A stretch of DNA of 64,000 nt from Planoprotostelium fungivorum (Eukaryota; Evosea; Variosea; Cavosteliida; Cavosteliaceae): contig MDYQ01000038.1 in assembly GCA_003024175.1 (NCBI GenBank), forward strand, positions 62,001 to 126,000, given 5' to 3'. Below the pieces are notes generated by a model. The model saw nothing but the letters and a program-made list of their open reading frames with translations. It had not been told where the DNA came from and did no database searches. Position numbers and translations under genes: made by a program. Numbering within the stretch: position 1 is the stretch's first letter; the number at the start of each line of letters is the position of its first letter. Shown here in pieces: positions 1,727 to 62,647 of the stretch.

Positions 1727-2742
1727 TTATCCTTCCACCGCTTGTTCCTGCCCCTGCCCTCCATTTCCCCTCTCCTTCCTCAACAGAAACACCACCGGAT
1801 AGCAGAAGAGTAGTATGAAGATCTGCACCGTGATGAAAATGAGATTCCAACTGTAAGTCCTCGGGCTCTGACACTGGTCGGCAGAGCCCAGAGACAGACA
1901 CAGGAAGATCCTCAAGAAGATCATAGATAAGAGGTAAGTCGTGAAGAGACAGACGACACAGCCGGCCGAACGGCTCTGACCGTTGAATCGGATGACCGAT
2001 GTGATCATCACGATGAGAGCCGAAACGTCCGATATCCACCACGGAATGATGACTGAATAAAAGTTCAATCTACAACGTTGTAGACGGACGAGATAAAAAT
2101 AAAATAAAATTCACCGGAACAGAAGGAGATGGAGGTCACGCTGGACAGCCACAGGGTCAGTTGGACGAGAGAGACGTTGATGCAGAGGAGTAAGAGGATC
2201 CAACCTACGTTCGAGAAGCTCTTCAATTGTCTATAGACGATCATTCACCGAACGATATATCGTCTCACTTGATGGTATCTACAAAGTGGTAGGCGTTGGC
2301 CGTGACGGTGGCGATAAGAACTGGCACTACAACGAGCCAGTTCGGCCCGGTCCATTTTCCTGCCAATCTCGACCACAAGAGGAGAGAAAAGAGGACGAAG
2401 AGGAGAGAGAAGGTAGACATCCACAGGCTACCGAATCGACCGTCTACAACGGGAAAGGTGTTGTAGATGGCCGAGCGGAGGGGGGAGTCTTTAGACGTGC
2501 GGTGGTAGGTGATGATGGTGATGATGATGATGACGAGGAAGGCATCGATGAGCCAGATCTGAAGGGGTGAGTGGTCGTTGTAGATGGATGAAGTGTACCG
2601 GGGTGAAGACTACGCTCCAGGGGATGGATAAATAGTTGTCGATTTTAGAACCAAGCAGCCAGAAGAAGATGGAGAAGAGGAAGAGTGGCACTCTCAACAA
2701 CATCGTCGTGCGAAAGAAGCTGAAGTTGAAATTCAATTTCAC
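1727..2742 (-). CDS. TMEM185-like multipass membrane protein
   Basis: At least four exons encode a protein of roughly 280 residues with several transmembrane segments. The first exon gives a helix followed by a K-I-D...PWSVVFTP motif that continues after an intron as IWLIDAFLVII. This matches the repeated 'LRLD...W.VVF.PIW' pattern of the TMEM185/TMEM60 (Fragile-X-F) family. A later exon repeats it as VIIPWWISDVSALIVMIT. The protein ends in a short Lys/Glu/Gly-rich tail. The family is conserved but poorly understood; localisation to internal membranes is inferred. The intron near 2055-2111 contains a perfect TCTACAACGTTGTAGA palindrome, and another intron carries a half-site at 2578. The start could also be the internal ATG about 13 codons downstream. 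Confidence 0.7.
2069..2084. repeat. intronic palindrome TCTACAACGTTGTAGA
   Basis: Perfect 16-base palindrome inside an intron of the TMEM185-like gene. It is the full form of a motif family found across the window, mostly as half-sites in introns. Function unknown. Confidence 0.9.
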
Positions 2743-2875
2743 TTTCGAGAAAATTTAAATATATTATTTCGTGTTTTTCGAAATATACTTTTACGTCGAA
2801 ATATTGAAAGGGGGAGATTGAAAGAAATATTTCTATGAAAAGAAGTATGAAAAGAAATAATATCTCGATGGAAAC

Positions 2876-5837
2876 TCACGCGAGAGTTCGATGGAATTTG
2901 ATCTGACGCCATCTACTGCGGAACGATTGTAGACGGTCGATGTACGTGGATTTGAACGAAAATTCCGATAAATCTCCCGCGCTCACTCCTCCCTGGGTGT
3001 GGATGGTGGGGTAGCTGCTCATGGACATGATTGGACTGATGACAGGCGACACGGCCGCACTCGGAGGTGGCACGGTGGTATCTTCTTCCTCAACGTGTAT
3101 CTACAACGAGTCAATTCGATTTCCTGCGGTAGAGGTCACCTGAACCGTGTGGGGCTGCGTCTCTTCCGTCTCTTTCTGAGAAATTTCAGGGAGGGTTCGG
3201 AGAATATGATGAGAATTTACCTGGAAATTTGCCGCGTAGAGTTGCCTCCACAAGACGTGATCATCAGATAGAGTGTAGAACCTCGAGCACACCCTGGCCA
3301 CTCTCCCCATTTCGAGTCCACTCAGATTCTGAAAAATGTGCAATATGAGCTCATCTACAACGTTGTAGTGTCAGCGATCGCAGAGATCAAATATCGCATG
3401 TCACCCGACAGGAGGTCGAAATTTCCATTCGAAGAAGTTTTCACCCGCCTCCGGCCGATCTTCGGACTGGAAGCTGCGATTCGCACCTGCCCACGTAAAT
3501 CGAAATCTCATCCGATTCTCACTCACTTTCACGTCTGTGATCTGCGACGTGATCTTCCTCTTGGGAAGTTTTCCTTTTCCATCACCAAAGACTTGTCTGT
3601 CCGGCACATCCAGATTCTTCATGGAGAGTTCCCGGGCTTTCTTCATTTTCCTGGGAATATACTTGGCCAGGGTGACCACAAACACGGCACACCATACGCC
3701 CAACAGAACGAAGAGCATGTACCCTGATTTTCGTCGGTCGATCTACAACGTGCCGTGGCGTCACCTGCGTAGCTGCTCGTGTTATCAGCGGGCGGTGTGT
3801 TGAAGGTCTGGTGAGGCCACAACCAGATGTCGTTGAAATCTCGGTACGAGTCGTCTCGGCCTCCAAAGAGGAAGACCTGGGAAATCGTGAGAAATATCGT
3901 GGAGAATTGGTGTTACGTACTCCGGTGGTGGAGGATACCATGGCGCTCCGGGTGCGGGCGGGAGGACCGAGCGTTGTAGATTGCCAATTGATGACCAAAA
4001 AATCGAAATAAAAACTGTCTTTCGTGGTGGTCCCCCCGGTATATCCTCCCACCATCAACAGACCTGCAGATGTGAATAAAATCATTTTAATCCATTTTAA
4101 TGTTCTTCACCTGATGATGTGGCGGCGGCAGATTGTAGAGTGCGGGGGCTGGGCTGAGAGGGTGCCCACCTGTCATTGATGGTGTCCCATGGGCCCCTAC
4201 CATCCAGCATGATACTCCAACTTTCTGTATTCCCATCATAGCTCCATACGTCCTGTCAGATGAGTTGATATCCAGCTGCAGAGAAAAGATGGAGTGAAGA
4301 GATAGAGCGAAGGGTAGAAGTGAAGAGACACAAGAGAAGAGACAGAAGTGAAGAGACAGAAGAGAAGAGAGTAAAAGGACAAGATAGTAGAAAGTATGGA
4401 AGAGAAAATGTTTCGCGTGTGGCTCACATTCACAACGGAAGGACGAGTGCAACCTGATGGGGCCACGTCATCACCATCTCCCGAAGTCATGAGGATCTTC
4501 GTCTCATCGTGATACAGAGTCACCATGCTGTGTCCCTCTCTACCACTCGGACCTGGAGTGGATCAATCGTTTGTGACGGCAGGTTGTAGATGGACGTACC
4601 AGATGACGTGAGATTCCAAGTGTAATCGGAGGAGAGGAGCCAGACATCTTCCGAGAAAATTCCCACCGAGTCGATCCCCCCGAAGAATAAAACCTATTTC
4701 ATCGAATTTAATCTATTTGTTCATCTACAATCGTGTAGATGTCTCACCTTCTCACCGTTCGGCGTCAAGATTCGACTGGCGGCACCGTTCCTCCTTCCCG
4801 TGGGCCCTCTATCGGTTCCATCACTCAATAGCCTCCATTGGTACGTGATGGTGGAGAAGGCCCACGTCTCTGAGGAGATGTCCATTTGGGTCTGCCCTCC
4901 AAAGAGGATGATGTCGTCGTTCAATATGGATGTCACGTGACCGTAACGGGGGCTGGGTGAATCGAATGAACCGTTATTGAGTTGTGACCAGATCGATGTT
5001 GCTGAATTTTCGGTTGGATTTCGGTTCGACAAAGAATGAATGGATTGGGATTGTACATCGTCACGTGGGAAGAGGGGCGATGATGAGATGATAGACGATG
5101 ATGACAACTCACTCGTGTCGAGAGACCACATGTCGTTGAAGATGGCAGTGATGGATACGCTGCTGTTCGTGTTCAAAGAGATAGTCCTCCCTCCAAACAT
5201 GAAGATGGTGTGGTTCACGACAGACATGCTGTGACTGTTTCGAGAGTGTGGCGTTGTGCCAACGAATGATCTGTCCAGCCAATCAACACACATTTCAGCT
5301 GTATCGTGTGATCCCCACTCTGAAGTGTTAGAACCTCTCGGGATGATTTCGTGCCATTGTAAAGTCGTGTATTGGTCTGTGGGGTGTCAGTGATATGACC
5401 CATTTGATTTGAATGATACCAGTTGGGTCGATGGTGTAATAGTTGGAAAGGCTGAAACCCCCGCACTGTGAATTGTTGTCGCCCGGACAAGGATAATTGC
5501 AGTTGCTGTTACTGCTGCTCTATGGAGGATCAATCGCACTTCGATGAGCAATACTTCACCTGTGTATAAGGCTTCGAGTCTGTACAATAACAGTAATAGG
5601 GATTAGGAGAGCCCACAGCTGCATATGGTAATCTCAATCCTTCACAGTGCCGAATGCATAACCAAGGAGTCATCGATGGGTCCGTTATGAATGGAACTAA
5701 ACCTGAAGGTGGTGGCAGACATCCAGAAGAAGAGTACACATTAAAGACGTCAGCTCGACATCACCTCTCAATCTTATTTCACCTGTTGCCATCACGTGCA
5801 GGAAACATTGTGAAAAGAAGAACAAGAGGAGGCTCAT
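2876..5837 (-). CDS. WSC-kelch-transmembrane-F-box protein
   Basis: Multi-exon gene with an unusual order. Exon 1 encodes a signal peptide beginning MSLLLFFFSQCFLH. Next come a WSC-type Cys-rich domain over two exons (YYCYC, then a CPGDNNSQCGG end) and a run of kelch blades with FMFGG, ILFGG, LMVGGYTG and VFLFGG motifs. A single membrane helix (YMLFVLLGVWCAVFVVTL) is followed by a basic stop-transfer stretch. The cytoplasmic end is an F-box (NFDLLS joined across an intron to DELILHIFQNLSG, then VCSRF...LWRQLYAANF) plus a short tail. The frame through the TM-to-F-box exons is consistent when a 46-base intron (GTGAAAGTG...GGGCAG) is removed. Predicted type I membrane protein with an extracellular carbohydrate-binding and propeller part and an intracellular SCF adaptor. 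The joining of the parts rests on splice prediction. Several introns carry the TCTACAAC motif. Confidence 0.72.
4280..4385. repeat. purine-rich imperfect repeat in an intron
   Basis: Imperfect copies of GAAGAGACAGAAGTGAAGAG fill the largest intron of the WSC-kelch-F-box gene. It is a simple-sequence expansion with no coding frame joined to the kelch exons on either side. Confidence 0.6.
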
Positions 5838-8169: not shown

Positions 8170-9414
<1,245 letters not shown>

Positions 9415-11586: not shown

Positions 11587-14500
11587 TTATGTCGCAACGT
11601 TCGGCCCGATCTTTCTGGCCACTTGAATGTAACTGGATGTCTTTCCTCTCTTGCTCTGCGTCTGACACAAGACACACCTCACGACCTCAGACGAGGACCT
11701 CTTTCCTTCTTCACCTACACGTAGACAACCTGTGAAGAGGTCATCAGGATGATGAAGTTCGGATGAGCGAGTGATGTTGTGATGATCACAAGATGGACGT
11801 GATGTTCGATGGACGATGAGGATGATGATTGTGAGGGCTTACTCTGATGGTAGATGTGACGACATCCAAATATGATGACATCCTTCTGTGTCAAGATGTT
11901 GTCATCACAGATGGGACAGCGATGATCTTGAGCCACACGGACACCCCTCCGATTGCTGCGGTGCAATCTCTGAATGAGATCGACACAATCAGCCTTCAAA
12001 ATCTCGTTACAACCTGTAAGTCGTGAGAAATAAAGAAAAGAAGAAAAGTATGAAAAGTATGCAATTTTGTGTAGCATCGAGATAGGAGTGATGAAAATAT
12101 AAAATTTCTGTATTGATTCGAGTAAGAGGATGACACAGATGACTTTGAATCATGTCTAAAGACAATTGCACTTGTCGTTCGATGAGCGCTCACCTTCTCG
12201 TAGGGACATCTGAAGATGATAATCTGAAATGATCTTCACGATTCTGTCTCTCAGGTTTTTGACCTGAGATCGTGAGACGGAGATTTCATCGATTTTTCTC
12301 ACCTCCATTCCCATGGGAATACGTTTGATCAATCGAACGGGATCGATGTACGCTCCTGTACGTACGTAAGTTTCCATGGTAACGTCCATCTACAACGCAC
12401 CGATGTGTTCCAGCAGCCCCGATACGAATTTTGGATTTTTCATGGAATAATCGATGAGATCCTCCCACAATTCATCATCATTTTGTGTATCGATAAATTC
12501 GATGGCCTACAACATTCAATTCGAAATAAAATAGAATAAAAGCCGAATGGAAAGAAATTTTGGAGAAGAGGAGAGTGAATGTGGAGATGAAGAATATCTC
12601 ACCGTCTTCACGTCTCCAATTCTCTCGATCAACAGTTGTAGAGCCTGCTTCACTCTTCCCATCCTTCCCAATATGTACACCATCTCTGGATAATAATTTC
12701 TCTCTTCACAGATCTATCACCACCATCAATTCACCGCTCTCCACGTTGAACACTCTTCAATGTCTCACCTGATAAGCGTTTTCTAAACCGAGAGCCCAGT
12801 GGTCACTCTGCTTGAGGAAAGTCATGAGATAAGAGTAATCGTATTGAGCGTAGAGCCCGACTTGCAGCTCGTGATAGGTGGAGCCCACTTGTGGGTCTTT
12901 GAGAAAGAGGGCGTGGAGGTAAGAGTGGAGCATCAGTGGGTATGGTCTCAGTTGCTCCACGACTTCGGGAACCTGGGAAAGTCAACGGAGAGTCAATGGA
13001 GACGAGGGAAAGTCAACGGAGAGTCAACGGAGGGAAAACTCACGGGGATCTGATCGATGTGGGTGACCAACATCTTGACTGCCTTCTTCGAATCGTAATC
13101 CATCAGTAATAACACCTATCTACAATGAGCCCTCTTTCCCCACTGATAATTCCACGAGATTTCTCACCTTCGATCGTACAGCTTCGAATAGCTCGTAGTT
13201 TTCAATGTATTGCAACGCGTTGGGTCTCTTTCTCTTCAACAGGATGTTCATCGTCTTATCGAACCGCTTCACGTAAGTGTACCTGTCCGATGATGAGTTC
13301 ACACTCGATCATCGTGTGTCGTCATGACGATGAGACTTTCTCATCTGGGTCATGAGATCACGTGACACTCACAGTTTGGCTTGGACGTCCAGTAGTGTAT
13401 CTGATAGAGGCTCCATCAATTCTAAATGATATAAAATCTTGTTTGGATCGTACACGGTGGCGGGCCACTCCTCTACAACAGACAGAAGCTTCCCGTGGTC
13501 CGCTGGAGTTTCCAAGAATTTTACGAGAATATTCTCGTACACGGCAGAATCCAAGGTGGGTTTACCTGTTTCCTTCAGCCTCCCAGTCACAATAAATTAC
13601 AATAAATCCATTTTCCATATCTCCTATGAAAAGAAAGATCGATTTCGATATTTTTCTACAGAGAAAAGATGAAAGATAAAAAAGAATTTTTTTCTCACCG
13701 ACAGGAATAAAGTCAACGACGGCCTTGAGATAACCCTCTCGAATAAAGACATCGATCCACTTATTCCACAACAGCGGATCCTTCTGCAATATCTTCGAAC
13801 ACAACTCTGCCGCCTTCTCCGGTTGTTTCTCAGTGATGAGCTCTTGTATGTATTTTCCAGCGATGTCGACCAACTTGTGAACGTTCAAAAGGGCTTCGCT
13901 CTGTCTGGCCACACGCAGCGCGGCCTCGTATCTACAACGCGTCACGGAAAATTGCGGAAGATTATTTCTCACTTTTTTCTCTCCATGAGCCAGGCCACGT
14001 GATCGTCCAAGTCTCTAGGTCTGGCTACGACGATATCTCTGGGTGATACGACGTAATACATCGACTCTTCAGACATGCTGCCCAGACTGTACTGCTGTGA
14101 TTTGTACTGCTCGTAGCCGTGAACGGTCAATGCATCAGAAGATATCTCCTTGTTGTTCCTCGAAATGATCCGAAATTCCGGTCTCAAGCCACGCTGGTGG
14201 TGGTGAGTTGTAGATGGAACTTTCCTTGAAGATTCCTCACGGTCAGCTTTGGGTTGTCTTCGTCTTCTAGGTAAGCGAGAGTGATGATGTATTCACCGAA
14301 CGGTGCGATTCCACAGATGTAATAGTCCGTCTGAAACCTGCGAATGCGATGAGCGTACGGTTTTGGCGGGAAAAAGACTCGCATGGATGTGATCTGGATG
14401 TAGCGATCGGGAAATTTCTTGGAATCATCCGTGTCGTTGGTCCTCTCTATGACTTGTGCAATTTTGACGGAGTCTGCCCAGCCGATCAAGAGCCTCGTTG

Positions 14501-15828: not shown

Positions 15829-18459
15829 TCAGTAGTCGATGGAACCAGACCACATGTTGAAGTTGTAGTAGTTACCAGAGCTCTGGATGTCAGGTCCTCC
15901 GGAACCAGTGCTGATAGCACCGTTGAGGTTGACGATGACTTTGACGGCACCGGTGGCTCCGTTGAAGGGCACACACCAACTATCGAGAGTGTTGCTGATG
16001 GTGTGGGAAGAGGACACGGAGTTTCCGATCTGAACGGTAACGGTGGCGCCCGTCTTAAGGGTGATCGCGTGGATGCCAACACAGTCGTTGGGCTGATGAC
16101 AATGTCAGTGTCCGTCATTCATCGTTGTTTCCTCACAGTCCAGTAGAAGTGAGGAGATCCGTAGGCGTCGTTGGATCTGGATTGACCCACGCTGTGGATG
16201 CGGTAGTGCCAGTAGAGAGTGTTCTTCGTGGGTGTACCGTTACCAGTCTTGAAGTAGTTGGCATAGAAGGCTGTCATACCGTAGAAGCCACCGTGGTTCA
16301 TGGCGATGGGGTTGTTGACGTAGCTGGGAACAGAAGAGGCGTCGTTCTGGTTGGGAATCTGATCGTCAAGTCAGGTGATGTTTGTGAGAAGAGGTACTGC
16401 ACCTGTTCGAGGGGGCCGATGTAAGAAGACTCTGAGAAGTCGTTCCAGGTAATCACTTCCACGAACTGAGAGCCAGACTGTGAAGGGGTGAGTCTCGTTG
16501 TAGTGTGATGAGAGATCTCACAGCGATGACTTGCTGCCATCTGGTGGCGTAGATGTTCTCGTCTCCCAAGGTGGTTCCATCCATGTACATCCTATGTCAC
16601 GTCAGTTGGAATTTCCACGAGATGTCACTCGAATCCGCACCAGTTCTTGCCGGCGTTCCACTTGACGTAGAACCAAGGAGCGACACCAGCCATGTACTTT
16701 TTGCCCATGCTGTTACCAGAGGAGATCGCTCTCTGGTCTTGGGAGTTGGAAGAAGTGGCTCCCCAGGCATCCCAGCTGAAAGCACAGTCGATGAAAGAGT
16801 ACCTGGAGATGTCAGACGGTGATGGTAGGCGTACAGTACGTACGTGGTGAAAGCCTGAGATATGTCTCCAAGGAAAGCTGGGCAGAAGTAAACGTTGTTC
16901 TGTCGTGGTGTCAGATCGTCCGTCTACAACAGTGTGGATCACCTGAGCTTTCCATGAACTCCACCAGGTTTGGTCACCACCTGCGAAAGTGGATACGAAC
17001 GGCTTTCCGTTGTACCTGTGCAACATTGATATCAAATAAGATGTTTTCACGAGCGTTACTTGTAGTAGGCAGGATGGCTTCCGAACTGGTTCATCATCGA
17101 TGTGAGGTAATCTTGTGTCATACCACCGATTGTCATGTCGAAAGAGAAAGCTGCATACATGCCGGCAGACTGAGCTGCCTGCAGCATGTAACCCATCTTG
17201 GTGGTAGTCCAAGAGTCTACACCAACTATCCGATGTCATCATCGTCACGATCGTGATGATGCACTCACTGTTGGCGATGAATACATCGATTCCGACTGCC
17301 TTGGCCAGAGTGCACTGTCTGTTGAAGTAGGTCTGGTCGGCAGTATTATCCGCAGCATATCCCATCATGTAGTGAGACATGACGACTCTACCGTTCCATG
17401 TCTGAGCCGCTTGAGTGGTTGCAGGTGTCTGAGTCGAGCTAGTGGAAGCCTTGGTGGTCGAGCTAGTGGAAGCCTTGGTGGTCGAGCTGGTGGTAGGAGC
17501 AGCGGTGGTGGGGTTGGCGCCGGTAGAGTAGATGGAGTTCCTGTAAGAACCACCGCAGCGAGTCTCTCCGTTGGTGCAGTTCATGTTGCAATCGGTCTCG
17601 GCGGCAATTCCGTACGTACCGTACGTGTTACCGCAGAAACACTGGGTGGAGTACTGCACGGCGAAGTACTTGTAGCCCTGGCAGAGACTGTAGCACTGAG
17701 ATACGCTGCTGACGCTGGTGGACTGAGAGACAGAGAGGTCACGGGTGCCGCTGTCTACGTAACAGCCGACGTATTGATAAGCGCTGGTGGTCGAGGCGGC
17801 CACCGTGCTGGCCTTCGTTGTAGATGTGGTGAATGTACTGGCCTTTGTTGTAGACGTGGTGGAAGTACTAGCCTTTGTTGTAGACGTGGTGTAAGTGCTG
17901 GCCTTCGTTGTAGATGCGGCGACGGTGCTCGATTTGGTCACTGCAGGGGCGGCCTGAGTGGTCAGGGGGTATGAGTTCGCGGCGACGATCTTGAACAGGA
18001 TGGAGCCGGTAGAATCAGCAGTGAAAGCGCAGTTGGGTCCGCCTCTACCGACGCAGCCCCAGTTGACATCCATGGTGCCTCCGATGGACACCTGCGTGGA
18101 AGGTGAGTTGGGATCCAATCAGATGGACATCGGATGATGTGTGACGTCACCTTCCAGTTGTATGACTTTCCGGCGACGAGGTTACGGACGGTAACGGCGT
18201 ATTCACAGTCTTGATTATGAGTGGGCTGCATGACACCGAGAGGCTCGGCAGCATTCCATGCTGCGGATGAACCACCCGAAGCATCGGTGGGCCAGTCACC
18301 GGTAGCACGATAAGTCTACATCGTCCGTCAGAACATCAGATGAAGATGATCCTTTCGAATCACCTGGTCTCCCCATCCACAAGAAGAATTGTTGGGGTAG
18401 GCCACCTGAGCGTGAGCTAAGAGTACAGCGAGAGAGAGGACGAGTACGTGGTACCTCAT
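15829..18459 (-). CDS. secreted GH71-family alpha-1,3-glucanase with one WSC domain
   Basis: A multi-exon secreted enzyme. It has a signal peptide (MRYHVLVLSLAVLLAHA), a beta-rich N-terminal module (GGTMDVNWGCVGRGG), a Ser/Thr linker of TTKAST repeats and one WSC carbohydrate-binding domain (YVGCYVDSGTRDLS...CFCGN...CNMNC...RCGGSYRNS). The catalytic GH71 domain follows, with SHYMMGYAA, AKAVGIDVFIANS, FSFDM, PFVSTFAGG and VITWNDFSESSYIGP. A C-terminal beta domain ends NFNMWSGSIDY. GH71 enzymes cut alpha-1,3-glucan, a fungal cell-wall polymer; WSC domains bind such walls. The enzyme would act outside the cell or in the phagosome. A paralogue lies 5 kb downstream on the same strand with conserved 5' and 3' flanks, showing a tandem duplication. 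The propeptide-like N-domain family is unknown to me. Confidence 0.85.
17811..17930. repeat. 30-base coding tandem repeat in the Ser/Thr linker
   Basis: Four 30-base units encode TTKASTxTTS decapeptides in the mucin-like linker before the WSC domain. Each unit contains GTTGTAGA (17817, 17847, 17877, 17907), read on the coding strand as Ser-Thr-Thr. It probably arose by replication slippage. Confidence 0.75.
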
Positions 18460-20715: not shown

Positions 20716-20821
20716 TTGTCTTTGGTGAATCATCGCCCGCACAGATACCACATAAAACAACGTGAGACAGATATCTTTTTGTCTTAAAACAAACACAGGG
20801 TTTATTGATGTTACAATGTCA

Positions 20822-23652
20822 TCAGTAGTCAACAGCGCCGGACCACATGTTGAAGTTGTAGTAGTTACCAGAGCTCTGAATGTCAGGTCCTCCAGAACCA
20901 ATCTTGGTGGCACCATTGAGGTTGATGTTGACTTTGACTGCACCGGTGGCTCCGTTGAAAGGCTCACACCAATTGTACAGCGTGCTGCCGATCGTGCGAA
21001 CGGGTGACACGTAGTTTCCGATCTGAACGGTGAACGTGGCACCAGTGCGAAGGGAGATGGCGTGGATACCGACGCAGTCGTTGGGCTGATGATGACGTCA
21101 TTACACGTCACATCACATCCTGCACTCACGGTCCAGTAGAAAGTGGGCTTTCCGTAGCTATCGCCCGATCGAGTTTGGTCTCTGTTGTGAATGCGGTAAT
21201 GCCAGTAGAGAGTGTTCTTCGTGGGTGTACCGTTACCGGTCTTGAAGTAGTTGGCATAGAAGGCTGTCATACCGTAGAAGCCACCGTGGTTCATGGTGAT
21301 GGGGTTGTTGACGTAGCTGGGAACGGAAGACCAATCTGCAGCGTTGGGGCCCTGTCTGGGAACCTAGATATGGTGTCAGATGACATCGTGTGAGGAGATA
21401 TTACCTCTCTCAAGGGGCCGATGTAAGAAGACTCGGAGAAGTCGTTCCAGGTGATCACCTCTACGAACTGAGCGCCAGACTGTGAAGGAGTGAGTCTCAT
21501 TGTAGTGTGATGAAAGTTCTCACTGCAATGACTTGCTGCCATCTGGTGGCGTAGATGTTCTCGTCTCCTTGAGGCGTACCATCCATCCACATCCTATGGC
21601 CATCAGTCGAAATACAAAGAGATTCTGCACCAGTTCTTGCCACCGTCCCACTTGACGTAAAACCAAGGAGCGACACCAGCCATGTACTTCTTGCCCGAGG
21701 AACGAGAAATGGCTAGCTTGTCTCTATCGTTGGAGGTAGAGGGTCCCCAGGCATCCCAACTGAAAGCACAGTCGATGAAGGAGAAACTGAGTCAGATGTC
21801 AGATGACGCGATAGGCGTACAGTACGTACTCAGAATAGACGGTGGTGATGTCTCCTAGGAAAGCTGGGCAGAAGTAGACGTTCTTCTATCCTGGTGTCAG
21901 ATCGTTCATCTACAACAGTGTAATTCACCTCCGTCTTCCAGGAGCTCCACCAGGTTTGCTCGCGGCCTCCGAAAGTGGAAACAAAAGGTCTACCGTTATA
22001 CCTGCGAGGAGATTAAAATAAATAAACCGAATTTCAATATATCACCTGTAATAAGCGGCATGGTCAACGAACTGATTCGTATACTCTCTGACTTTGTCTT
22101 GTCCCATAGATTGAGCATACATGTCGAAAGAGAAAGCAGCTTTGATACCGACAGCCTGGGCTGCCTGCAACATGTATCCCATCTTCGTGGCAGTCCACGA
22201 GTCAGCTCCGACTGTTCGATGTCATCGTCGACGTCATCATCACCACCATCAACTCACCGTTGACGATGAAGACATCGATTCCGACAGCCTTGGCCAGAGT
22301 GCACTGATCGAAGAAGTAATTGTAATCGGCACCACTACCAGCGGCATAGCCCATCATGAAGTGAGCCATGACAACTTTACCATTCGGAGTCTGTGCAACT
22401 TGCGTCGTCGCAGGCGTCTGAGTCGAGCTAGTAGAAGCCTTCGTGGTGGGATTGGCGCCCGTAGAGTAGATGGAGTTCCTGTAAGAACCACCGCAGCGAG
22501 TCTCTCCGCTCTGACAGTTCATGTTGCAGTCGGTCTCTGGCATGGCGCCGTACGTACCGTATGTGTTACCGCAGTAGCATTCGGTGGAGTACTGTACGCC
22601 AAAGTACTTGTAGCCCTGGCAGGAAGTGTAGCACTGATTCAAGCTGCTGACACCGGGTTTAGCGACGGAGAGGTCACGTGTGTTGTCATCTCTGTAGCAT
22701 CCCACATACTGAAACGGGCTCGTTGTAGTGGCGGGGACGGTACTGGCCTTCGTTGTAGACGAGGTGATTGCCTTTGTAGTGGAGGCAGCGGTGGGGGTAG
22801 CACCGATCGAATAGACAGAGTTTCTCCAGCCGGCACCACATTTCGTGTCTCCGTTGGTACAGTTCATGTTACAATCGGTCTCTGGCATGACACCGTACGT
22901 ACCGTACGTGTTACCACAGTAACACTGGGTGGAGTACTGCACGGCGAAGTACTTGTAACCCTGGCAGGCAGTGTAGCACTGGGCCAAGCTGCTGACGCTG
23001 GATTGAGCTCCAGATAGGTCACGTGTGTTGTCATCTCTGTAGCAGCCGAGGTACTGGTAGCCAGTTGTGGTGGTTGTAGAAGCAGCCACCGTGCTGGCCT
23101 TCGTTGTAGATGCGGCGACGGTGCTCGATTTCGTGGCGGCGGGGGCAGCCTGAGAGGACAAGGTGTAGGAGTAAGATGCGACGATCTTGAGGACGATGGA
23201 GCCGGTAGAATCAGCAGTGAAAGCGCAGTTGGGTCCGCCTCTACCGACGCAGCCCCAGTTGACGTCCATGGTACCTCCGATGGAGACCTGCATGGAAGAT
23301 GAGATGAGATCCAATCAGATGGACATCGGATGATGTGTGACGTCACCTTCCAGCTGTATGACTTTCCAGCGACGAGGTTACGGACGGTAACGGCGTATTC
23401 ACAGGCTTGAGCATATGTGGGCTGCATGACACCGCGAGGCTCGGCGGCATTCCAGTTTCCAGATGTCTGACCCGATGCATCGGCGACCCAGTCACCGATG
23501 GCACGATAAGTCTACGTCGTCCGTCAGAACATCCGACGAAGATGACCTCTTCGAATCACCTGGTCTCCCCATCCACACTCGGGATTGTTGGGGTAGGCCA
23601 CCTGAGCACAGGCTAAGAGTACAGTGAGAGAGAGGAAGAGGAGGTACCTCAT
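20822..23652 (-). CDS. secreted GH71-family alpha-1,3-glucanase with two WSC domains
   Basis: Paralogue of the gene at 15829-18459. It shares a signal peptide (MRYLLFLSLTVLLACA), N-terminal module, Ser/Thr linkers, GH71 domain (AHFMMGYAA, AKAVGIDVFIVNGE, VITWNDFSESSYIGP) and the C-terminal beta domain ending NFNMWSGAVDY. It differs by having two WSC domains in tandem (first with LGCYRDDNTRDLS, second with VGCYRDDNTRDLS), so one WSC plus linker was duplicated here or lost in the sister gene. The 3' flanks of both genes share a run including AAACAAACACA and TTTATTGATGTTACA. Introns interrupt at matching places. The likely role is extracellular or phagosomal hydrolysis of alpha-1,3-glucan. Confidence 0.85.
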
Positions 23653-26841: not shown

Positions 26842-29440
26842 TTAATCTTCTATGACCTCTTCCACGATCATCTTGTTCTCGACTCTGATCTTCGTAAAGA
26901 TGTCGTGGCCATGAGGACACAGCCAACCACCGACAGCCATGTTCCTCTCCTTCTGCATGCTCTGCAACAATGTCTTCGCATCAGATGGACTGTAGATGGG
27001 TGTCTTGTTCGGGTCCTTCTCTAATATGAAACTGATGACAGACGACAGGTAGCTGCTCTTCTTCAGAGTCAAACTGCACGAGTCAACCTCTTGTCGTGAT
27101 GATCGATGAGATGACGTCAAAGTGTCCTCACATTCTGACCAGCTCTCTCGCATCTTCCGCGTTGAGATGTAAGTCACTCGTCACCGCTCTCAATTGTAAC
27201 CCTCCATGGACCAATTCTACCACCATCCCATTCTTCTTCGCTTCCTACGTCCCAAATTAATATGAATCAATACAAATAAATGTGATCGATCACGAATGAC
27301 ATGTGAAATTTCGACGGAATCTCACCCGAACAATGACAGACGACACACTGTCGTCCATCTTGCAGATCACTTTGAGAGGCATCGGTAGAGGTTCAAAGTT
27401 TTGAAACGGATGATGATGAGGCAGGAGCTGATGGAAGGTGATGGCCTCCACCGCTTTGTTCGAATCGAAGAGAAAGACATTGGATAGCCCGGGTGGTCCG
27501 AACCGTACGACGAAATGTCCCGTTTGTTTGAGTTTACCGATCATGACGCAACTGATGACCGTGAGACATGTGGACACGTGATCGATGATGATGATGATCG
27601 TGGGCGATGATGGATGAAGTGAGATGATCGAGATGATGATCTCACTCGTCGATGTCATTCGGTCCGATCGATTCGATGACCCTGTCTCCTCTCTTGTGTG
27701 GTGGTGCGAGAGCCCTCATCTTGATGTCTGCCATGTCGATCAGAGCCGTCATCACTTTCGCCCTCTTTGCGGGAGGTCCTTCTTCTCTCTTCTTCTCCTC
27801 CGTCTTCTCTTCTTCTCCTGCACTCTCTACTACTTCACGATTCGCATCTGGAAGTGGTTCTTCTTCTTTACCCTCCAACGTCTCCTCCGCGGGAAAATTT
27901 TGGCGGGAACCGACCTCCGTGGGGGTTGGAGTGAGGGGAGGTAACGGTGTAGGGTAGAATTCTTCCAGCATCTCCTCGAACTTCTTGACGAGCGCCACTT
28001 CCTGATGAAATTTGATCGTCCTCTTATTGGGTGAAATGTTCACTGCAACGTCTCAGACTCTCCTTCTGCTTCTACAACTCACCATCATAACTGTGTGTGT
28101 CGATCTGTATGTGAACGAAAACGAAGGGGTAGCTCTTCGATGTCAAACGAAAGTGAGCTCTGAATTTGGCGTTGATGACTTTTGTCAGCTTGAGGAGATC
28201 GATGGGTCGGTGGTTGACGTATATGTACATCCTCTCGTTCGTGGACTTTGATATTTCGGATGCGTCGGCGGTACGTTTCGGTAGGAAGCAGTGGACGTGC
28301 ATGGTGGTCGTCTCGTTGTTTTCTGTGATGTCTTGAGTGAATTTGGTCTCGTGGAGTTGGAGACATTCTTCTGGGAAGATGGATTGTAAGACACTCTGTG
28401 TGGGTTCAGATGGTGGACGATGAGATGGTGATGTTGTGATGATGTTGTGACAGTGGTCATTTGATGATGAGATGAGGTGACGATGATCATGATCATCTAC
28501 TCTAAATGAGGTACGATTGTAGGTTACGTGTGATCGATAGAATCACCTTCGTATCAGGAAGAGATTTCTTGATGATGTTCGGTTTCGGTGGTTCTTCATA
28601 GATGATCTTGACGTGGGGAGCGATGAGAGAGTACTCGTGAATCATATTGTGTATCCTCCTCGTTGCATTCTTGATCTTCTTCTCCACCGTCTACAACTCG
28701 CCTCAGCCAATGATAACGGATGAGAAGAGAACGTCTGATGACTTCATCTCGTCACCTGACGTCTGACGGGTAAGTCCATGAAGATCCCTTTCACTTGGAT
28801 CTTCGTCCCGTGCTCTTTGATCTTTGTTCCCTGCGGGTCTCCCACATCTGATGTCGTCTTGCTGTCCTCGTCAGAAGATGAGACGAATGTGGGTGCACCT
28901 TGTCACTTGGCCCTTCTTGTCCAATTGTAAGAGGGTGATATTGTCGTCATTGATGGTCTTCGTCCATACTTTTACCTTCGAGAATGAGCTGAAGGTAGTA
29001 GAGATGGATGATTACCTCTTTTGAAAGATCGCACAGGGATGAGAAACCTTCTCCTCTGAATCCATAAGTGAGAACTGTGTCTAATTCTGAAAAGTTGGCC
29101 AGTTTGGATGTGTGATGTGGTTGACCGAATGAATAGAAATCTCCTCGGGCAATGCCTGAACCATTGTCTTCGACGGTAATCGTATCTAAACCTTGTTTCG
29201 AAAGGTGAATGCGTACCGTAGTTGCACCAGCATCGAGACTGTTTCTACAAAGTTGAATCAGTTTGGACATGAAAAGGGTGAACATTATCAAGAAACACAC
29301 TCTAAGAGTTCTTTGACTGCGGCATCGACATCAGTCACGACTTGTTCGGCTTTGATTCTTCTGACTGTATCTGCTGGTAATTTCTTGATCTTCGTTTCTT
29401 GAGGACCTAGCTTTATGTCTTGCAGTTCTTCGTCGTCCAT
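26842..29440 (-). CDS. PMS1/PMS2-type MutL mismatch-repair protein
   Basis: Multi-exon MutL homologue. The GHKL ATPase has KKLPADTVRRIKAEQVV, VKELLE spliced to NSLDAGATTV, VEDNGSGI, YGFRGEGFSSLCDLS and LPVRRQ. The second domain has MYIYVNHRPID and VNISPNKRTIKFHQE. An acidic Pro/Glu linker follows, then a C-terminal dimerisation region. The last exon keeps CPHG (CPHGHD instead of CPHGRP), but the site aligned with the DQHA(X)2E(X)4E endonuclease motif reads FDSNKAVEAITF, so the latent nuclease seems lost. The partner would be MLH1. Whether it is PMS1 or a diverged PMS2 is unresolved. Introns carry GTTGTAGA near both splice sites (28071, 28691). Confidence 0.85.
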
Positions 29441-44757: not shown

Positions 44758-48688
<3,931 letters not shown>

Positions 48689-49439: not shown

Positions 49440-50862
49440 ATGAGTACCACCTCTAAGGGCTCACGCCCAACTAAAACCTCTAACTCTCAGAAGGAGACGA
49501 AACCAAATCATGCAGTAAAAAAGAAAGTGGATGCAAAGTCCACTGAGGAGCATGCTCTTTGGGTGACCAAAAACCAAGCCATGTTCAATCTCATCGATGA
49601 GTTTGACGTAGAGGAGGAACTGGCTCCCAAGTGAGACCGAATGATTGAATAGAATGCATTCTAATTGTGTCAGAGAGAACCACGTGAACCGTCAACCCCT
49701 CATCCGCAACCCCAGCCGTCCTGCGCCGAAGATCAAGAGCGGATGCATTGTTCTGAAGAAGACTCCACCAAAGAAGTTAGACGACATCTTTGCTGAGGAG
49801 AAGAAGCCCCAACAGAAATCAGCTGACGGCAATGCAAAGATCGTACACAAATCGGCTGCTCCAATCAAAATTGCCAAGGTCAACAAACCCTTAAAGGCAG
49901 TCAAGAAGAAGTCACTACCTCTGTCACCCATCGTGGAGCTCAAACGACCACGCCGACAGGCCAATGACTCGGGCATCGATTTAGAGAAGATCTTTGCATC
50001 AATCCACGTGAGTAGTCAGCCATTCCATTCTCTGTGATCTGATCGAGATCAGAACAATTCACCTTGCAAAGAGGATGCATCATCGAAAGCATACCCCGCG
50101 AGGAAGAAGAGGAAGAATATGGAGACGGACGATATAGACATCAATATGGACGTGTCCGAGAGACAAGAGGCCATGAAGAGGAAGATAGACGCGCCCAACC
50201 AACAAAAGTCAACAATGACTCCCATGAAAGAATCAGACTCTGACATCTCCATCGGTGATACGGTGATCCACCATCTCCATCTCATTTCATCTCATTTCGC
50301 GCAGTCACCGACCGATGCCCCATCCCAAGATCTCACCTCTGAGAACTCCCTCGACGACACACCCGATGGATTCGATGAGCTCAACGACTCCGTCTTGAAC
50401 GTCATCTGGCAAGAAGAAATCAACCAACTGAACCACTCTGTTCCTCCCAGCCCCTCCACCTTCCACGAGGTATGTTCCATCTACAACGATCCAAAGCTGA
50501 TATTCATTTTCGTAGATTTTGAATCCACTTGTGGCAACGAGACCGACATCAGAGCCTCATACGATGAGGGCTCACTTTGTGGAGTGCGAGGACCTGTGCA
50601 TACCACCTCTCATACTGCCACCGATAGAGGATCGAGACGATCCAAAGGTCTACGATCCATCACAGAAGTCAAAAGGAGAGAAGCTGAAGGTCTCTAAGCC
50701 AACCATAAGGTGATGACGATCATGATGATGATGTCTGAAGAGTGCAGTGTGACGAAGGCAGAAAAGAAGATAACGACGAAGAAGACAACAGAAGAAGAGA
50801 CGAGAGAAGAATATGAGAGATACAAAGCAGGTGATGATCCCTCATCCTCCTCACAGGTCTGA
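49440..50862 (+). CDS. basic, probably nuclear, protein of unknown function
   Basis: Five exons give about 390 residues with no family that I recognise. The N-terminus is Ser/Thr/Lys-rich (MSTTSKGSRPTKTSN); then come HALWVTKNQAMFNLIDEFDV, a basic region with likely nuclear-localisation clusters (KKTPPKK, KAVKKK, KRPRRQ, RKKRK), an acidic/Ser central part (ETDDIDINMDVSERQ, MKESDSDISIGDT, FDELNDSVLNVIWQEEINQL), LCIPPLILPPIEDRDDPKVY and a KKITTKKTTEEETREEYERY end. The composition suggests a chromatin or mitotic regulator with short linear motifs. One intron carries TCTACAAC at 50480. The stop assumes no intron after YKAG; a 26-base intron there would move the end to 50909. Confidence 0.6.
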
Positions 50863-56352: not shown

Positions 56353-59300
56353 CTATTCGATGGGATAGTAGAAGAGCCATTCTCCTATGGCACTCTGTGT
56401 CTGAGGTCTCACTCTCATCCTCTTGATGTATTCACTCTTCCACAACCTCCCTATCTCATCTCAGTCACACAGAAGAGAGAAGAACATCCCACCCTTCTTC
56501 AATGCCTTCTCTATACCACTAGAGACAAGGTTCGTCTGTACCTCACGATGAAAGTGGTTGAAACAGATGAAGAGGGTGTAGACGTTGTAGTAGCGGGGTG
56601 GGCTGTTGTAGATGCGTGAGGTAGAGCACCAGAGGTTCGTGATGCATTCGCATTGACCGAGGGCGCGACGGAGATTGCCCCAGACTCGATCTACAACGAG
56701 ACGATCCACGCCGATCTCCCACACACCTGAAGGGTATCACTACGAGTCGAAATTTCGACGAGAACTCACCGAACGGTTCTCCATGCTCGTGTTGCCTGTT
56801 GTAATCCACACGCAACCAGCTGACGTCCTCCACCTCCGTCGGCTGTCCTCGTCAGTTTCGAGTCGAAATTTCACGGGTTCGGATGAATCCTCACGAGAAG
56901 CCGACGGCGAGAGAAGGTATCGGGGATGTCCCTGACGTAAGCCATGGGGTCCTCTCCTCCATAGAGGATGCCTCTGACCATCTCATCTACATCTTCCCCT
57001 GCATGCATGGGAGATAAGAAGAGACGGAGGCTGTCCCTACAGATGCCCTCGTGCATCTTCACGGCTACGTCGTGATTCTATGTGATGGTGAACGTCTACA
57101 CTCGTGATCTCATCACCTGTCTCATGTTGTGGGTGATGTCGATGTCTTCGGAGAACATCATGGAGTCGTCTAAACTGAAAGGAGGACATCCTGATCTCAG
57201 ATAGAAGGCGAGAGACAGCTGATAGCCCAACACTGTCTCCGTGTCATTGTAGATGAGGAGAGAGGATCTCACTCTTCCTCACGCTCGCGTGTTCGTTCTT
57301 CAAACCCGATTGAACGGTGTAGAGGATGTAAGTGGCGAGATAAGGAGGGGGATGATCCATACTATCCAATACATCGCTGGCCAGCAATCGAAAGAAGGTG
57401 GTGGTGATGAGATCGGCAGAGGGAGGACACAGGCGGCCCGTCACCTTCATGTAGACGTAGCCGTACATCTGTCACAGCTTCAGTGGATGGAGGTGGAATA
57501 TCTCACCGTGAAGAAGAAGGATAGAATGGATGGGTAGGAGACATGTTTCTGTTCGAGAAAGTGTTGGATGACGTTCATGATATCCTTCGAAGCATCTTTC
57601 GGCTTGGGGAAATTTCTGTTGAGAATTCAGTGTGGAATGATAATGTGCTCGTTGTAGATGGAAGAGGGACTACCTCCACACTCTGGGAGGACCTCCGATA
57701 CGATCGGAAGAGAAGAAGGGAACGGAGGCCAATCGAACGGAGACACTCAAATCAGACAGCCAACGATAAGAATGGTGGCTCAGAGCTGACTGGTACTCGG
57801 GACCTGTCGATGGATCAATAGAATTCGAGAGAGGTGGTGACGTCACACCGGATAGTTCGATGACGTGTACAGCACGAGCGTCGGGGTGTAGTACGGGGCC
57901 GAACCACAGGTGAGGGTAATCCGTAACGTATCGCAGACGCATCTTCTGTGAGGTGGCTTGATAGTGTGCCATCTGTGCCGCGTATCCCGCTTCATAATGG
58001 ATCTGTCTGTATCCCACTCCACCTGTCACATCATCATCATCACCATCATCATCATCACTCGTGTGGATTCGGCTTCACCTCTCTCTTCCACGATGTCTTT
58101 TAGATTGCAGACACAGACGAGAAGGATAGGTGGTGCCATGTTGACGATGTCGGGAAACGGATCAGATCCAAAGGAGGGTAAGAAGTAGAGGAACACGTTC
58201 GATTCCGCACAGGGAAGTGAAATGTGTCGAAACGGTTGGCCGCCGTCGCGAGGGATTCCGAGGACGGAAGAGGTGATGCGACGCAGCTCATCTTCATCGA
58301 CTGATCGGGGAAGGACGATGTAGAGGCCCGGGGCCAGTTGACTCTTCTCGGTGGCTCGGAGGACGTAGACTAATCGACCAGTGACGATCTGGTGGAGCCA
58401 CAGGGGTGAGATCTGGTGAAATAACTGCTCCATGACGCCGATCAACTGTTGGAGGTGGACATTGGCTCGATGTAGATGATGCATACCTGCTCGTTGGAGA
58501 CCAAGTATTGGGAGGTGAAGGGCTCCGTCACAACGTGGTCTCTTATCTGTGGATGGCATTCAATATGTATCGATAGAAGAGATTCCTACCTCCTTAACTG
58601 CTGGCCAACGGAGAGCGTCTCCCTGTGGAGCCAATGGAATCAGTGAGGCGAACTTCTTCTCCTGTGTGATATCAACCAAAGATGATCCTTCTCGTTGTAG
58701 ATGGACAAATCGACGCACCGTCATGGTCTCTCGTTGGATGGGTGGAATCTGCGGGCCTTCTCGGCTCACGATCGAGGGCCACACCATCTCCACCTTCTCC
58801 AGCATCTGATAGATTCTCTCTCCCTGTACATCGGTCATCCATCTCATCCATGACAGAAGTACACCCACCAATTGAAAGTCCGTTCTCTGTGCGTTGACGG
58901 CAACGATGAAGAGAGGGTCGATGAACTTTCCACCGTTCTTCTCGTCACTCCTCCTCTCGATCAACGAGTTGAGCCTGGAATTTTCGATCTCCAGTGGGGT
59001 GACCCTCCATCCAAAATTCATCGCCTTGATATTGACGGTGCAGAGAACGTGACCGGCGTCCAATAGAGAGTACCTGTACCTCTTCCTCTTCTGTTCGGGA
59101 TCTACGTGGAGGAGATCACAGAACCACAGGCCGAAACCTTGTTCTCCCAGGCCAGACTGTGAGAAGTAAGTCGGAGGAGAAGAGATGAAGGCACCTCCTC
59201 CCATTCATCGTTGGAGATGGAACCTGCGTTGGAGAATTGTTGGGTGGTCGGTTGATAATGGAAGAGAGTGGGTTTCGAGATGCATTCTGCACGATTGAGT

Positions 59301-59833: not shown

Positions 59834-59885
59834 AACTTTGTGCCCGTTTACAGATGTTCAATTTGAAAAGAGACACCCTTTTCTT

Positions 59886-62647
59886 CTATTTCACATCTAC
59901 AGAGTTGGGCAGCTTGGCAATGTGTCTCCTCAATAGAGCTAACATCTCAGAGGCTTGAATGCCTGTGCTGTTGGGCTGGGCCGTCAACTCTTGCAGGTAC
60001 TTTCTCAAGTCGTTCAATTGCCTTGCCGACAGAGGCACAATGCTTCTCTCCAACGAATACTGAAGCCAGGGGAAGACGTTATCTACAACGCGTCAATTTG
60101 AATTTCGAGATTTTCATCGTTTTCGGCTCACCCAAGAATCGGTTTCCCTTCACAAAGGAGACGAAGCGTAAGAACAACTCGGTCGCAGTCGATATGTCTA
60201 AATTATCGATGACAGTACCTATCTGTCTTCAGTGAGGATTGTGAGGCGATGACTCACCGGTGTAGTCCATGAGACGTAAGAGGAGGAGGGTGTCACCGTC
60301 CTCTAAGACAGTCCGATAAGCACCGTCCACGTTACCAATGTTGACGTTGTCTAATGCCGTGTTCCACGTTACGTCTTCCTGCATCTCTCTCAGCTGCTGT
60401 TTGAAATTTCACGGAAAGTCACTTGTTCCTGGATCTCGGGGTCGGACTCGGGATCGGGATTGATGTACTCCGTCACGGGTCGATCGGAGACGTTGGGTGA
60501 TCGGATCATTTCACGAACAAATGGATCTCTCTTGGGGGATCCGGGTGCCACTTTCGGTGATGAAGCTCTGTTGTCATCAGATCCAGCCACATCAGATGAT
60601 GAGATGATGAAGATGGATATGGAAGATGAGAAAATGATGATGATGATGAGATCAAGATGAGAGAAGATGAAGATGTGATGATGAAGATGAGATCTCACAA
60701 GGTATCTATGGAAGGTCTACCGGTGCGAGTGACGCTCATGACGTGCTGAGTGGTCATGTTCTGTATCGCTGGGTGGATGAGATGGGTGTGGAATGATGTC
60801 TCCCACCTTGACGGCTCTCGAGTTGTTCTAATCTCTGTCGGAGGAAGCGAACGTTCTCGTTACTCTCTTCCACGTGCTTTGCAAAGGAATTGGCCAATTG
60901 TTCGTATCTCTGTGTCATCATCAGAACATCATCAGATCATCAACAGATCATCGTTATCATCATGAAGGAATAGACTCACCAGATTCATCTGTGACATCTC
61001 TTCTCTGAGTTGAGATATCGTCTGTGACATACCCTGATGGTCCTCCCTCGGCTTATACAGCACCTCCTGATCCACCAATCTCCTGTTCTCCGTGCGAAAG
61101 TTTTCCTTGTTCGATTGTACGTCGTTGCCCACGGGAACGAAGAAGGGCTGATTGACACTCTTCCTCGTGGAGACAGATGACACGTCATCTTCTAACAGAT
61201 CTTCCTCCTCTAAATCAGGCACCTCGATCATTCTCCTCTCCTTCTCTACGACTTTTCAATGAAATTTCATCGATGTGTACGTACCAGGTAAGGTGGGGGC
61301 ATCGAAGAAGGAAGTTCCGTTGAAGGTGTCTTTTCTCTGGCTCGTTGTAGATCGAGTCGCGGAGAAATCCGGATGAATGGGATTCGATTGGGTGGACCTT
61401 CTGCTGGATACGGATCCGGCGCGGCTGGCGGGACGGCTGGTACGTCCCAAAGGGATATCCGCCTCCACTTGTCCTAAATCCGTCAGATCACGTGACGTCG
61501 TCCTCCATTCACCTTCGTTTGAGGACGGAAGGCTCTGCACTACGACGAGAGCGGAATTGATGGCATCACGTGCTGGCTTCATCTACATTGAGGATCAGAT
61601 GAAGATGATCATGATGATGATGTCTTCACCTTGTCGAATCTTGCCTTCTCTAATAGATCGATGAGAGAAGACTTGTAAGGGGAGAGGGCCGTTCGGAAGA
61701 TCTGAGCCAAGAGACGAACTGCTTCGGCTGCGGCCTTGCGATCCGTCCATTCTGTACAAGCGAAACCATCAGAGACGGAGGACAGAATAGAAGGAATGCA
61801 CTTGATACTCTGCTCGATGCATTTCTGTCCTCATGGATCAGATGTGACGATGAGATGGATGCGGATGATCACCTGAGAGATAGTGGTGAGGATGTGATAG
61901 ACACCACCCTTACAAAGGGTGCTGTTAGAGACGAGTAGCTTCTGAAAGCGAGTGATGAGATCGTGACAGCTCTCTGCGATCTGGGATTGGGGACTGTTGG
62001 CTAAGACGGCGGCAATGCACAGAGCTGCGCCCTGCTGTTGTGGACGACTCTGTGAGATGTGAATCGGTGCAAATGTGGATCATGGATGTTCACCTGCTCT
62101 GTGAAATGGGTGAGGAGAGGTTTCAGATAAGTATCGAGTGGTTCATATCTCTCTTCCGTTGATAAATTCGTGGCGATCACTCCAAATGCTGTCGCACACT
62201 CCTGATGGACCGCTACATCCTTGTCCTGAGGAAGATTGAGTGACGAGAAATATCCGTTAACTCCTACCTTTAAGTATTTTGTGAAGTTCTGGAGTATTTT
62301 GGGGAGAAATGGATGAAGGTGATGTTGGAAGACACCCGCTGCAGTAGAGACGAGCTTGGTGACGTCTTTTCTGTAAAAGGATGTCTCCCCTTCGTTGCTG
62401 CTCAACAGACAGTCCTTACCATATCAGTCAAAGAAGGAAAAATCACGCTCACCATGAAGATCGGCAGAGATTCCTCATTCGGATTCAACTGATCAAGGAT
62501 GAACAAGAGCTCATTCGTACCCTTCTGCAGCGTATCTCTCTTATTGAGCTTGTTGACAGAGGAGAGAACACGAGCACGGAATTCGCCCAGTGTGAGTTCC
62601 TCTCTCTGGGGACGAAGTGTGGCTGAGCGTCTATCTGCTTGCGGCAT
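59886..62647 (-). CDS. TORTIFOLIA1/SPIRAL2-like TOG microtubule-associated protein
   Basis: The N-terminal TOG/HEAT array starts LGEFRARVLSSVNKLNKRDT, with FILDQLNPNEESLPIFM, HQECATAFGVIATNLS, QQGAALCIAAVLANSPQ, SVSDGFACTEWTDRKAAAEA, SLIDLLEKARFDKVKPARDA. A Ser/Arg-rich basic linker (RTSRPASRAGSVSSRRSTQS) and coiled coil (SQTISQLREEMSQMNL) follow. The C-terminal domain has WNTALDNVNIGNVDGAYRTV, LEDGDTLLLLRLMDYTGTVI and FPWLQYSLER. This is the full order of plant TORTIFOLIA1/SPIRAL2, including its C-terminal domain, which stabilises microtubule minus ends in plants. The stop lies only 52 bases upstream of the next gene's start codon on the same strand. Introns carry GTTGTAG at a 3' splice site (60082). 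Confidence 0.82.

Follow-up and report, generated by a model that had tools for sequence, protein, structure and literature searches.

A recurrent octamer in the short introns of Planoprotostelium fungivorum as a candidate recognition site of a sequence-specific factor

What kind of element is a short word that recurs, in either orientation, in introns of different genes? This question is raised by the octamer TCTACAAC and its complement GTTGTAGA in a stretch of 64,000 nucleotides from Planoprotostelium fungivorum (contig MDYQ01000038.1, positions 62,001 to 126,000), which is called the window in the following. An original prediction made from the letters alone had counted about 45 copies where about two were expected by chance, and had offered three readings: the terminal-repeat remnant of an intron-generating element, a splicing enhancer or a protein-binding site. 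The third fits best of the three, and we tentatively regard the octamer as a candidate site of strict recognition by a single sequence-specific factor, in all likelihood a protein that binds DNA.

The window contains 48 exact sites (20 times TCTACAAC and 28 times GTTGTAGA on the forward strand), whereas dinucleotide shuffles yielded 1.46 octamers on average and four at most. The earlier count was therefore close to correct, the frequency within the window is far from the shuffled expectation and a chance origin of the abundance is rejected. Among all octamers occurring at least 12 times, CGTTGTAG (39 versus 1.1 expected) and GTTGTAGA (48 versus 1.9) have the two highest z-scores against the order-2 expectation. 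The description as a palindromic octamer has to be corrected: the octamer alone is not palindromic, only the joined 16-mer is. The three full palindromes (2069, 46490 and 46991) and the near-perfect one, which starts at 3354 and has one mismatch, were recovered as predicted. All four are intronic, and 0.01 palindromes of 16 bp with up to two mismatches are expected.

Gene and intron classes are throughout those of predicted models, which carry no transcript verification. For their prediction we used our own generalised Hidden Markov Model (HMM) gene finder, which was self-trained on the window and includes an intron penalty and a branch-point term. The window is eukaryotic, and 28 genes with 211 introns were predicted, 148 of which are shorter than 52 nt. 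The trained consensus comprises the donor AG/GTGAG, the branch-point word TCT(G/C)A(C/T) and the acceptor CAG. Because the motif itself could attract intron calls, the gene finder was retrained with motif positions given no content score, and the resulting models are referred to as motif-blind. TATAAA was distributed over intergenic, exon and intron sequence in a ratio of 8:1:1, which indicates that the intergenic calls are sane; missed exons are probably hidden in some intergenic stretches, e.g., 18460-20821.

With the full models 26 of the 48 sites fall into 23 of the 211 introns, 18 into exons and four into intergenic DNA; with the motif-blind models 22 sites are intronic. The original figure of about 24 intron sites was thus well founded, except that two of the listed sites, 14497 and 50480, are modelled as exon (50480 being ambiguous). 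The candidate intron 50470-50515 around the latter is well-formed (GTATGT, CTGAT, CGTAG) yet has an in-frame coding read-through, and it is possibly a retained intron. Seven of the 18 exon sites are Ser-Thr-Thr linker codons of two genes with WSC and glycosyl hydrolase 71 (GH71) domains, six of them inside tandem arrays. For the class tests these seven were dropped, which left 41 sites (about 0.6 per kb in 64 kb) or 38 places with palindromes counted once. Introns make up 18.4% of the window and harbor 23 of these places (binomial p 1e-8), exons harbor 11 and intergenic DNA, with 18.9% of the window, four (intron versus intergenic p 1.2e-4). With motif-blind models the places were distributed as 19, 14 and five, and both the intron enrichment (p 9e-6) and the excess over intergenic DNA (19:5, p 0.0023) were retained. 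The matches to the extended 13-mer that keep the core and deviate at no more than two flank positions (n=28) were assigned to introns, exons and intergenic DNA as 20, 7 and 1 by the full and as 16, 10 and 2 by the motif-blind models. Within the window, enrichment in introns is hence found with either set of models.

The accumulation could be a coincidence of composition and coding, produced by Ile-Tyr-Asn, Ser-Thr-Thr and Val-Val-Asp codons together with CATC-rich introns. CATC-type words are indeed very common, and seven of the 48 sites are the linker codons mentioned above; for these seven the explanation is accepted. Dinucleotide shuffles, the order-2 Markov expectation and synonymous-codon shuffles, however, all fall far short of the observed counts, by which the coincidence is refuted for the intron sites, and as an account of the element it is hardly credible. 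The commonest octamers of the window are simple words of the CATC/GATG type (CATCATCA 70 and GATGATGA 64 times on both strands), which are frequent in introns and form stretches, e.g., at 38574-38680, 45029-45140 and 60595-60692.

Relative to the gene, 12 of the intron sites are in sense and 14 in antisense orientation, which bears out the predicted occurrence in both orientations. For coding sequences (CDS) synonymous codons were shuffled in 25 of the 28 genes (g9, g10 and g22 were omitted). The three antisense sites found (0.13 expected) were reached in none of 2000 shuffles, the seven sense sites (2.45 expected) in five and the total in none. In 18 hand-picked control octamers (100 shuffles) the ratio was at most four-fold, namely for ATCTACAT (4 versus 0.99), which is itself motif-like. 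An excess in both orientations, in introns as well as in CDS, is not expected of a single-stranded RNA signal.

The intron sites share the logo TCCA-TCTACAAC-G, the information of which falls on either side; its core is invariant by construction, as the sites were selected on the exact octamer. A scan with the whole 13-mer yielded eight exact, seven one-mismatch and five two-mismatch hits in introns (simulated 0, 0 and 0.5). The twelve inexact hits carry 17 mismatches in total, none of them outside the five flank positions. When up to one flank and up to two core mismatches were allowed, introns yielded 19 such 13-mers: the core is whole in 15, none has one core mismatch and four have two. In introns the whole octamer occurs 22 times versus 0.2 expected, and its 24 one-letter variants together 16 times versus 6.5. 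A core that stays whole while the flanks vary does not fit decaying repeats, in which core and flanks would be lost at an equal pace.

This result bears directly on the idea that the octamer is the terminal-repeat remnant of an intron-generating element, or introner. Such an origin would explain the presence in many introns, both orientations and the palindromic junctions, and some introner families carry terminal inverted repeats and target-site duplications, as described in the portion of Gozashti et al. (2022, PMC9860276) considered here. A sequence common to many introns is also what introners display in that portion, but in the window only about 8-13 bp are common, at a variable internal position, in both orientations and with no further similarity. 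When 21 of the 23 motif introns (up to 75 nt, one paralog omitted) were aligned with the octamer masked, the mean pairwise score was 4.89. The other introns, masked to the same extent and drawn 200 times, gave 4.76 (standard deviation, sd, 0.19), and 41 of the draws reached 4.89. The best pair scored 8.5, a value equalled or exceeded in 174 of the 200 draws, and the reverse strand gave the same result; the single high-scoring pair was the paralogous intron 5 of g9 and g10 (14.5). Beyond the octamer no similarity along most of the intron length was detected among the motif introns, and no copy of it stands at the donor end of the four introns in which it forms the acceptor, as terminal inverted repeats would require. 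With no likeness outside the motif and a position that is neither terminal nor fixed, decayed terminal repeats are unlikely. Taken with the whole core and with coding-exon sites beyond codon expectation, this led us to abandon the introner reading of the original prediction, to which we assign a very low probability.

The neighbouring paralogs g9 (15829-18459) and g10 (20822-23652) point in the same direction, as they have ten introns each that match in order and phase and hence predate the duplication. Intron 5, with the site in both genes, is identical at 36 of 43 positions and its core is whole. The identity of introns 4 and 6 does not exceed that of shuffled sequences and intron 7 is slightly above this range, and of the four-fold sites in exons 4, 5 and 6 only 4/12, 3/8 and 3/5 are identical (10/25 in total). 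The comparison points to constraint on intron 5. Intron conservation between the paralogs is uneven, with introns 1, 2, 5 and 8 at 84-93% identity and the rest much lower.

Motif introns are not spread evenly over the gene models either. The 23 introns belong to eight genes, compared with 13.6 after permutation (p 0.001; sum of squares p 0.004), and six each are found in the kelch gene (g2 with g3) and in the kinase gene (g21). Other words are weakly shared within genes (0.079 of shared-word pairs versus 0.062 permuted, sd 0.009); most motif words were removed for this comparison, and the remaining motif word CATCTACA supplies part of the signal. The clustering by gene together with the dyad form suggests a regulatory site.

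It had further been predicted that the octamer sometimes forms the splice acceptor, and in all four cases named (3100, 13931, 28690 and 60082) the end of GTTGTAG coincides exactly with the 3' splice site of the model; at 28690 the base before it is A instead of C. As a rule the first AG past the branch point is taken for splicing. An antisense site, which contains an AG, should hence either lie upstream of the branch point or, if situated behind it, provide this first AG and become the acceptor. The sense sites contain no AG. Of the 14 antisense sites in introns, four have their AG as the modelled acceptor and ten have it upstream of the acceptor by 17 nt or more. A simple pattern recovered a branch-point-like word in nine of the 14 introns concerned, which falls short of proof for each single site. 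On this simple reading the acceptor role has a mundane cause and needs no special mechanism. Apart from the four acceptors the octamer is internal: it starts 4-58 nt from the donor, and its distance to the acceptor ranges from -1 to 108 nt. As this distance is variable, both orientations occur and the branch-point model is a different word, we agree with the statement that the octamer is not simply a branch point.

The main rival to the DNA-binding factor is an element acting at the RNA level, i.e., a pre-mRNA splicing or retention signal that works via a palindrome-bearing guide RNA or via pairing of sense with antisense introns. It is consistent with the preference for introns over intergenic DNA, with an exact core resembling seed pairing and with a TCCA flank that is present chiefly on sense sites; folding gives a hairpin of 6-7 bp in each of the three introns with an exact palindrome, and a palindrome-bearing guide RNA could pair with either orientation. 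Against this stand the balanced orientation and the coding-exon sites beyond codon expectation. Motif introns and other introns are moreover alike in splice score (p 0.75, without association with weak splice sites), length (p 0.89), position in the gene and intron phase (p 0.76). Fold energies are ordinary (z -1.4 to +0.9) in the six of 23 motif introns that were folded, on which basis stable RNA structure was rejected. Intronic splicing enhancers are likewise short words between donor and branch point. They act on RNA in one orientation, however, whereas the octamer is orientation-balanced. With the equal splice scores and lengths, this disfavours the splicing enhancer of the original prediction without refuting it, and we consider an RNA-level element rather unlikely on the whole.

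Next in rank follows a word of sequence drive or genome maintenance, exact copies of which would be favoured by recombination, repair or modification wherever they are tolerated. HIP1 in cyanobacteria and the DNA uptake sequences of Neisseria and Haemophilus are exact short words that occur about once per kb on both strands and in coding DNA too. The octamer resembles them in these respects and in its occasional inverted pairs, and its near-exact core, soft flanks, coding excess and density would be accounted for. Those systems are bacterial and have no known link to introns, however. Here intergenic DNA, which should be equally permissive and is of near-equal length, is poor in octamers (four places versus 23 in introns), and clustering by gene would not be anticipated either. 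We therefore judge this explanation to be somewhat less probable still than the RNA-level element.

Recognition by a DNA-binding factor agrees with the features expected of transcription-factor sites, as a conserved core, softer flanks, orientation independence and the dyad form are all present. The putative factor would occupy a single half-site in monomeric form and the 16-bp palindrome in dimeric form, reading a strict core surrounded by the soft flanks TCCA- and -G. Its sites would be lodged in gene bodies, mainly in minimal introns of about 43 nt, in which donor and branch point leave few nucleotides free between them, and their clustering in a subset of genes is what an intragenic cis-regulatory element would produce. 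That the factor is a protein, acts on DNA, dimerises and has a regulatory role is deduced from the form and distribution of the sites.

Several observations weigh against this reading. The concentration in promoters that a protein-binding site suggests is absent, with four of 38 places and one of the 28 strong sites being intergenic, and the nearly all-or-none core of the intron sites looks atypical, since the site of an ordinary factor lies in a promoter and withstands changes in its core. Three-mismatch 13-mers in introns number 16 versus 3.7 simulated, and 14 of their 48 mismatches are in the core. In the whole window the 24 one-letter variants occur 114 times versus 50 expected (2.3-fold), like those of other frequent octamers; part of this excess is coding (ACTACAAC in polyubiquitin and others). 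The TCCA flank (-4 to -1) is found in eight of 12 sense and two of 14 antisense intron sites (Fisher p 0.014), or, without palindromes and acceptor sites, in seven of nine and two of six (p 0.14). Such a dependence on orientation hints at an RNA-level component, the sites being too few to decide. Four sites (4583, 12389, 14207 and 58694) leave the intron class in the motif-blind models, 12389 through a split of the Vps41 gene which Pfam argues against. Finally, introns 1, 2 and 8 of g9 and g10 are conserved without a TCTACAAC site (44/49, 55/59 and 40/44); intron 8 contains ACTACAAC in g9 and ACTACAAT in g10, and the four-fold sites of exons 1-2 are well conserved too.

Two further dyad words accumulate in introns. 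The palindrome TGACGTCA, which we take to be of the CREB/ATF type, has nine sites, eight of them intronic and none intergenic (z 7.7 versus the intron expectation); its case is the weaker one, as donors (GTGAC) or branch points coincide with some of its sites and the intergenic number would be low in any case. GAAATTTC has 11 sites, eight of them intronic (z 12.6), and five of these eight are in g26. Palindromic 8-mers in introns number 58 versus 43.8 expected (sd 7.3). For 10- and 12-mers the counts are 22 versus 11.2 and 14 versus 3.1 in introns, and 23 versus 10.7 and 12 versus 3.1 in intergenic DNA, an excess that is absent from exons. Being equal in introns and intergenic DNA, it indicates that specific words, and not palindromes as such, favour introns.

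Pfam supported all models tested, i.e., eight of the 28 proteins. Among them are Vps41 (g8, two domains, E 2e-102 and 3e-82), the protein kinase (g21, 6e-68) and a MutL-type mismatch repair protein (g13, 4e-20). g2 has Tmemb_185A and kelch domains, the kelch match being below Pfam's cut-off, and the kelch segment g3 and g2 are probably one gene. The model g26, with 32 introns and 1490 aa, has TORTIFOLIA1-like domains and may fuse more than one gene. Further matches were to Rad1, to WSC and GH71 (of the paralogs only g9 was run) and to an AAA ATPase (g17). An intronless polyubiquitin gene with four 228-nt repeats was recognised by eye at 8170-9087. Known RNA families and tRNAs were not found in the window.

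Table 1. Octamer sites and further dyad words in the window (positions are those of the window; a slash marks the splice junction).
Feature	Position	Strand	Context
Full 16-bp palindrome TCTACAACGTTGTAGA	2069..2084		g2 (- strand, kelch/Tmemb_185A-like) intron 10, 2053-2114
Two facing half-sites, 9 nt apart	2443..2467		g2 predicted CDS, codons GTT GTA GAC / ATC TAC AAC
Sense half-site, exact TCCATCTACAACG	2577..2584	-	g2 intron 8
Antisense half-site = 3' splice site, GTTGTAG/A	3100..3107	+	g2 intron 6, 3101-3139
Near-perfect palindrome, 1 mismatch	3354..3369		g2 intron 4, 159 nt, unusually long call
Antisense half-site	3742..3749	+	g2 intron 3
Sense half-site	4583..4590	-	g3 kelch-segment intron; non-intronic when motif-blind
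Antisense half-site, exact 13-mer	12389..12396	+	Vps41 (g8) intron 16; exon when motif-blind
Antisense half-site = 3' splice site	13931..13938	+	Vps41 intron 9
Sense half-site	14207..14214	-	Vps41 intron 8; exon when motif-blind
Antisense half-site	16923..16930	+	WSC/GH71 g9 intron 5, 16900-16942; conserved in g10
Four octamers, tandem Ser-Thr-Thr coding repeat	17817..17914	-	g9; set aside as coding repeats
Antisense half-site	21909..21916	+	WSC/GH71 paralog g10 intron 5, 21886-21928
Antisense half-site	28071..28078	+	MutL-type g13 intron 6
Antisense half-site = 3' splice site	28690..28697	+	g13 intron 4
Sense half-site	36001..36008	+	AAA ATPase g17 intron 8
Full palindrome	46490..46505		Kinase g21 (- strand) intron 15, 46468-46510
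Antisense half-site, exact 13-mer	46660..46667	+	Kinase g21 intron 14
Full palindrome	46991..47006		g21 intron 12, 46973-47021, between donor and CTGAC branch-point-like word
Sense half-site	47151..47158	-	Kinase g21 intron 11
Sense half-site, exact 13-mer	47593..47600	-	Kinase g21 intron 8
Sense half-site, exact 13-mer	47724..47731	-	Kinase g21 intron 7
Exact 13-mer, ambiguous class	50480..50487	+	Called exon; within candidate intron 50470-50515
Antisense exon site	56690..56697	+	g26, GTT GTA GAT (Val-Val-Asp)
Sense half-site, exact 13-mer	57651..57658	-	g26 intron 26
Sense half-site, exact 13-mer	58694..58701	-	g26 intron 21; exon when motif-blind
Antisense half-site = 3' splice site	60082..60089	+	g26 intron 14
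Sense exon site	61344..61351	-	g26, within Ser-Thr-Thr
Ser-Thr-Thr linker sites	17817, 17847, 17877, 17907, 22752, 23073, 23103		Excluded from tests
Eleven further predicted-exon sites	2443, 2460, 3973, 12635, 13472, 14497, 31188, 50480, 56605, 56690, 61344		
TGACGTCA	7842, 18142, 21093, 23338, 27112, 46876, 57838, 63751; 55594		Introns; exon (55594)
GAAATTTC	3180, 27305, 54067, 56749, 56865, 57609, 60403, 61261; 3418, 14411; 23997		Introns; exons (3418, 14411); intergenic (23997)

Collections of viruses and prokaryotes were scanned as well, which is uninformative on relatives of the amoeba. In viral contigs neither the extended palindrome nor a palindrome combined with a half-site had a match. 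The intron-like pattern was found at 19 loci with 1-3 octamers each, including the matched one, and the bare palindrome at 13 loci with 2-5 octamers each, including the matched pair. One of these 13 contigs, a 4120-base IMG/VR contig (L024), carries the bare palindrome and three further octamers, which amounts to five in all versus 0.16 expected. The scan of prokaryote genomes gave one locus, in an AT-rich record titled Pelagibacteraceae.

Iterated short motifs are also described for Theileria, where they were mined upstream of genes and proposed as factor-binding sites, two of them near transcription starts (PMC2612703, as far as considered here). That compact genome has short introns and iterated words as well, but its motifs lie upstream, whereas the octamer is intronic and scarce between genes. 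Literature searches for the letters of the octamer, for over-represented, intronic and orientation-independent motifs, for Protostelium/Planoprotostelium and for introners returned no report of the octamer among the papers listed, with most subscription papers outside their coverage.

The tests of orientation, core decay and sequence class separate ideas that are often mixed, namely introner remnants, splicing enhancers and DNA-binding sites. It is not settled why so many introns of near-minimal length persist in compact genomes, and the octamer offers a reason that can be tested directly: the introns would carry sites that are read. It fills much of the free space of minimal introns and seems to be kept in g9 and g10 despite diverged neighbouring sequence. 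A bolder and rather doubtful extension is that minimal introns of about 41-45 nt are a main store of the regulatory DNA of this organism and hold dyad sites such as TCTACAACGTTGTAGA, TGACGTCA and GAAATTTC. If this were true, regulation would be read within genes as much as from promoters, and the retention of introns in evolution would in part reflect selection on dyad sites.

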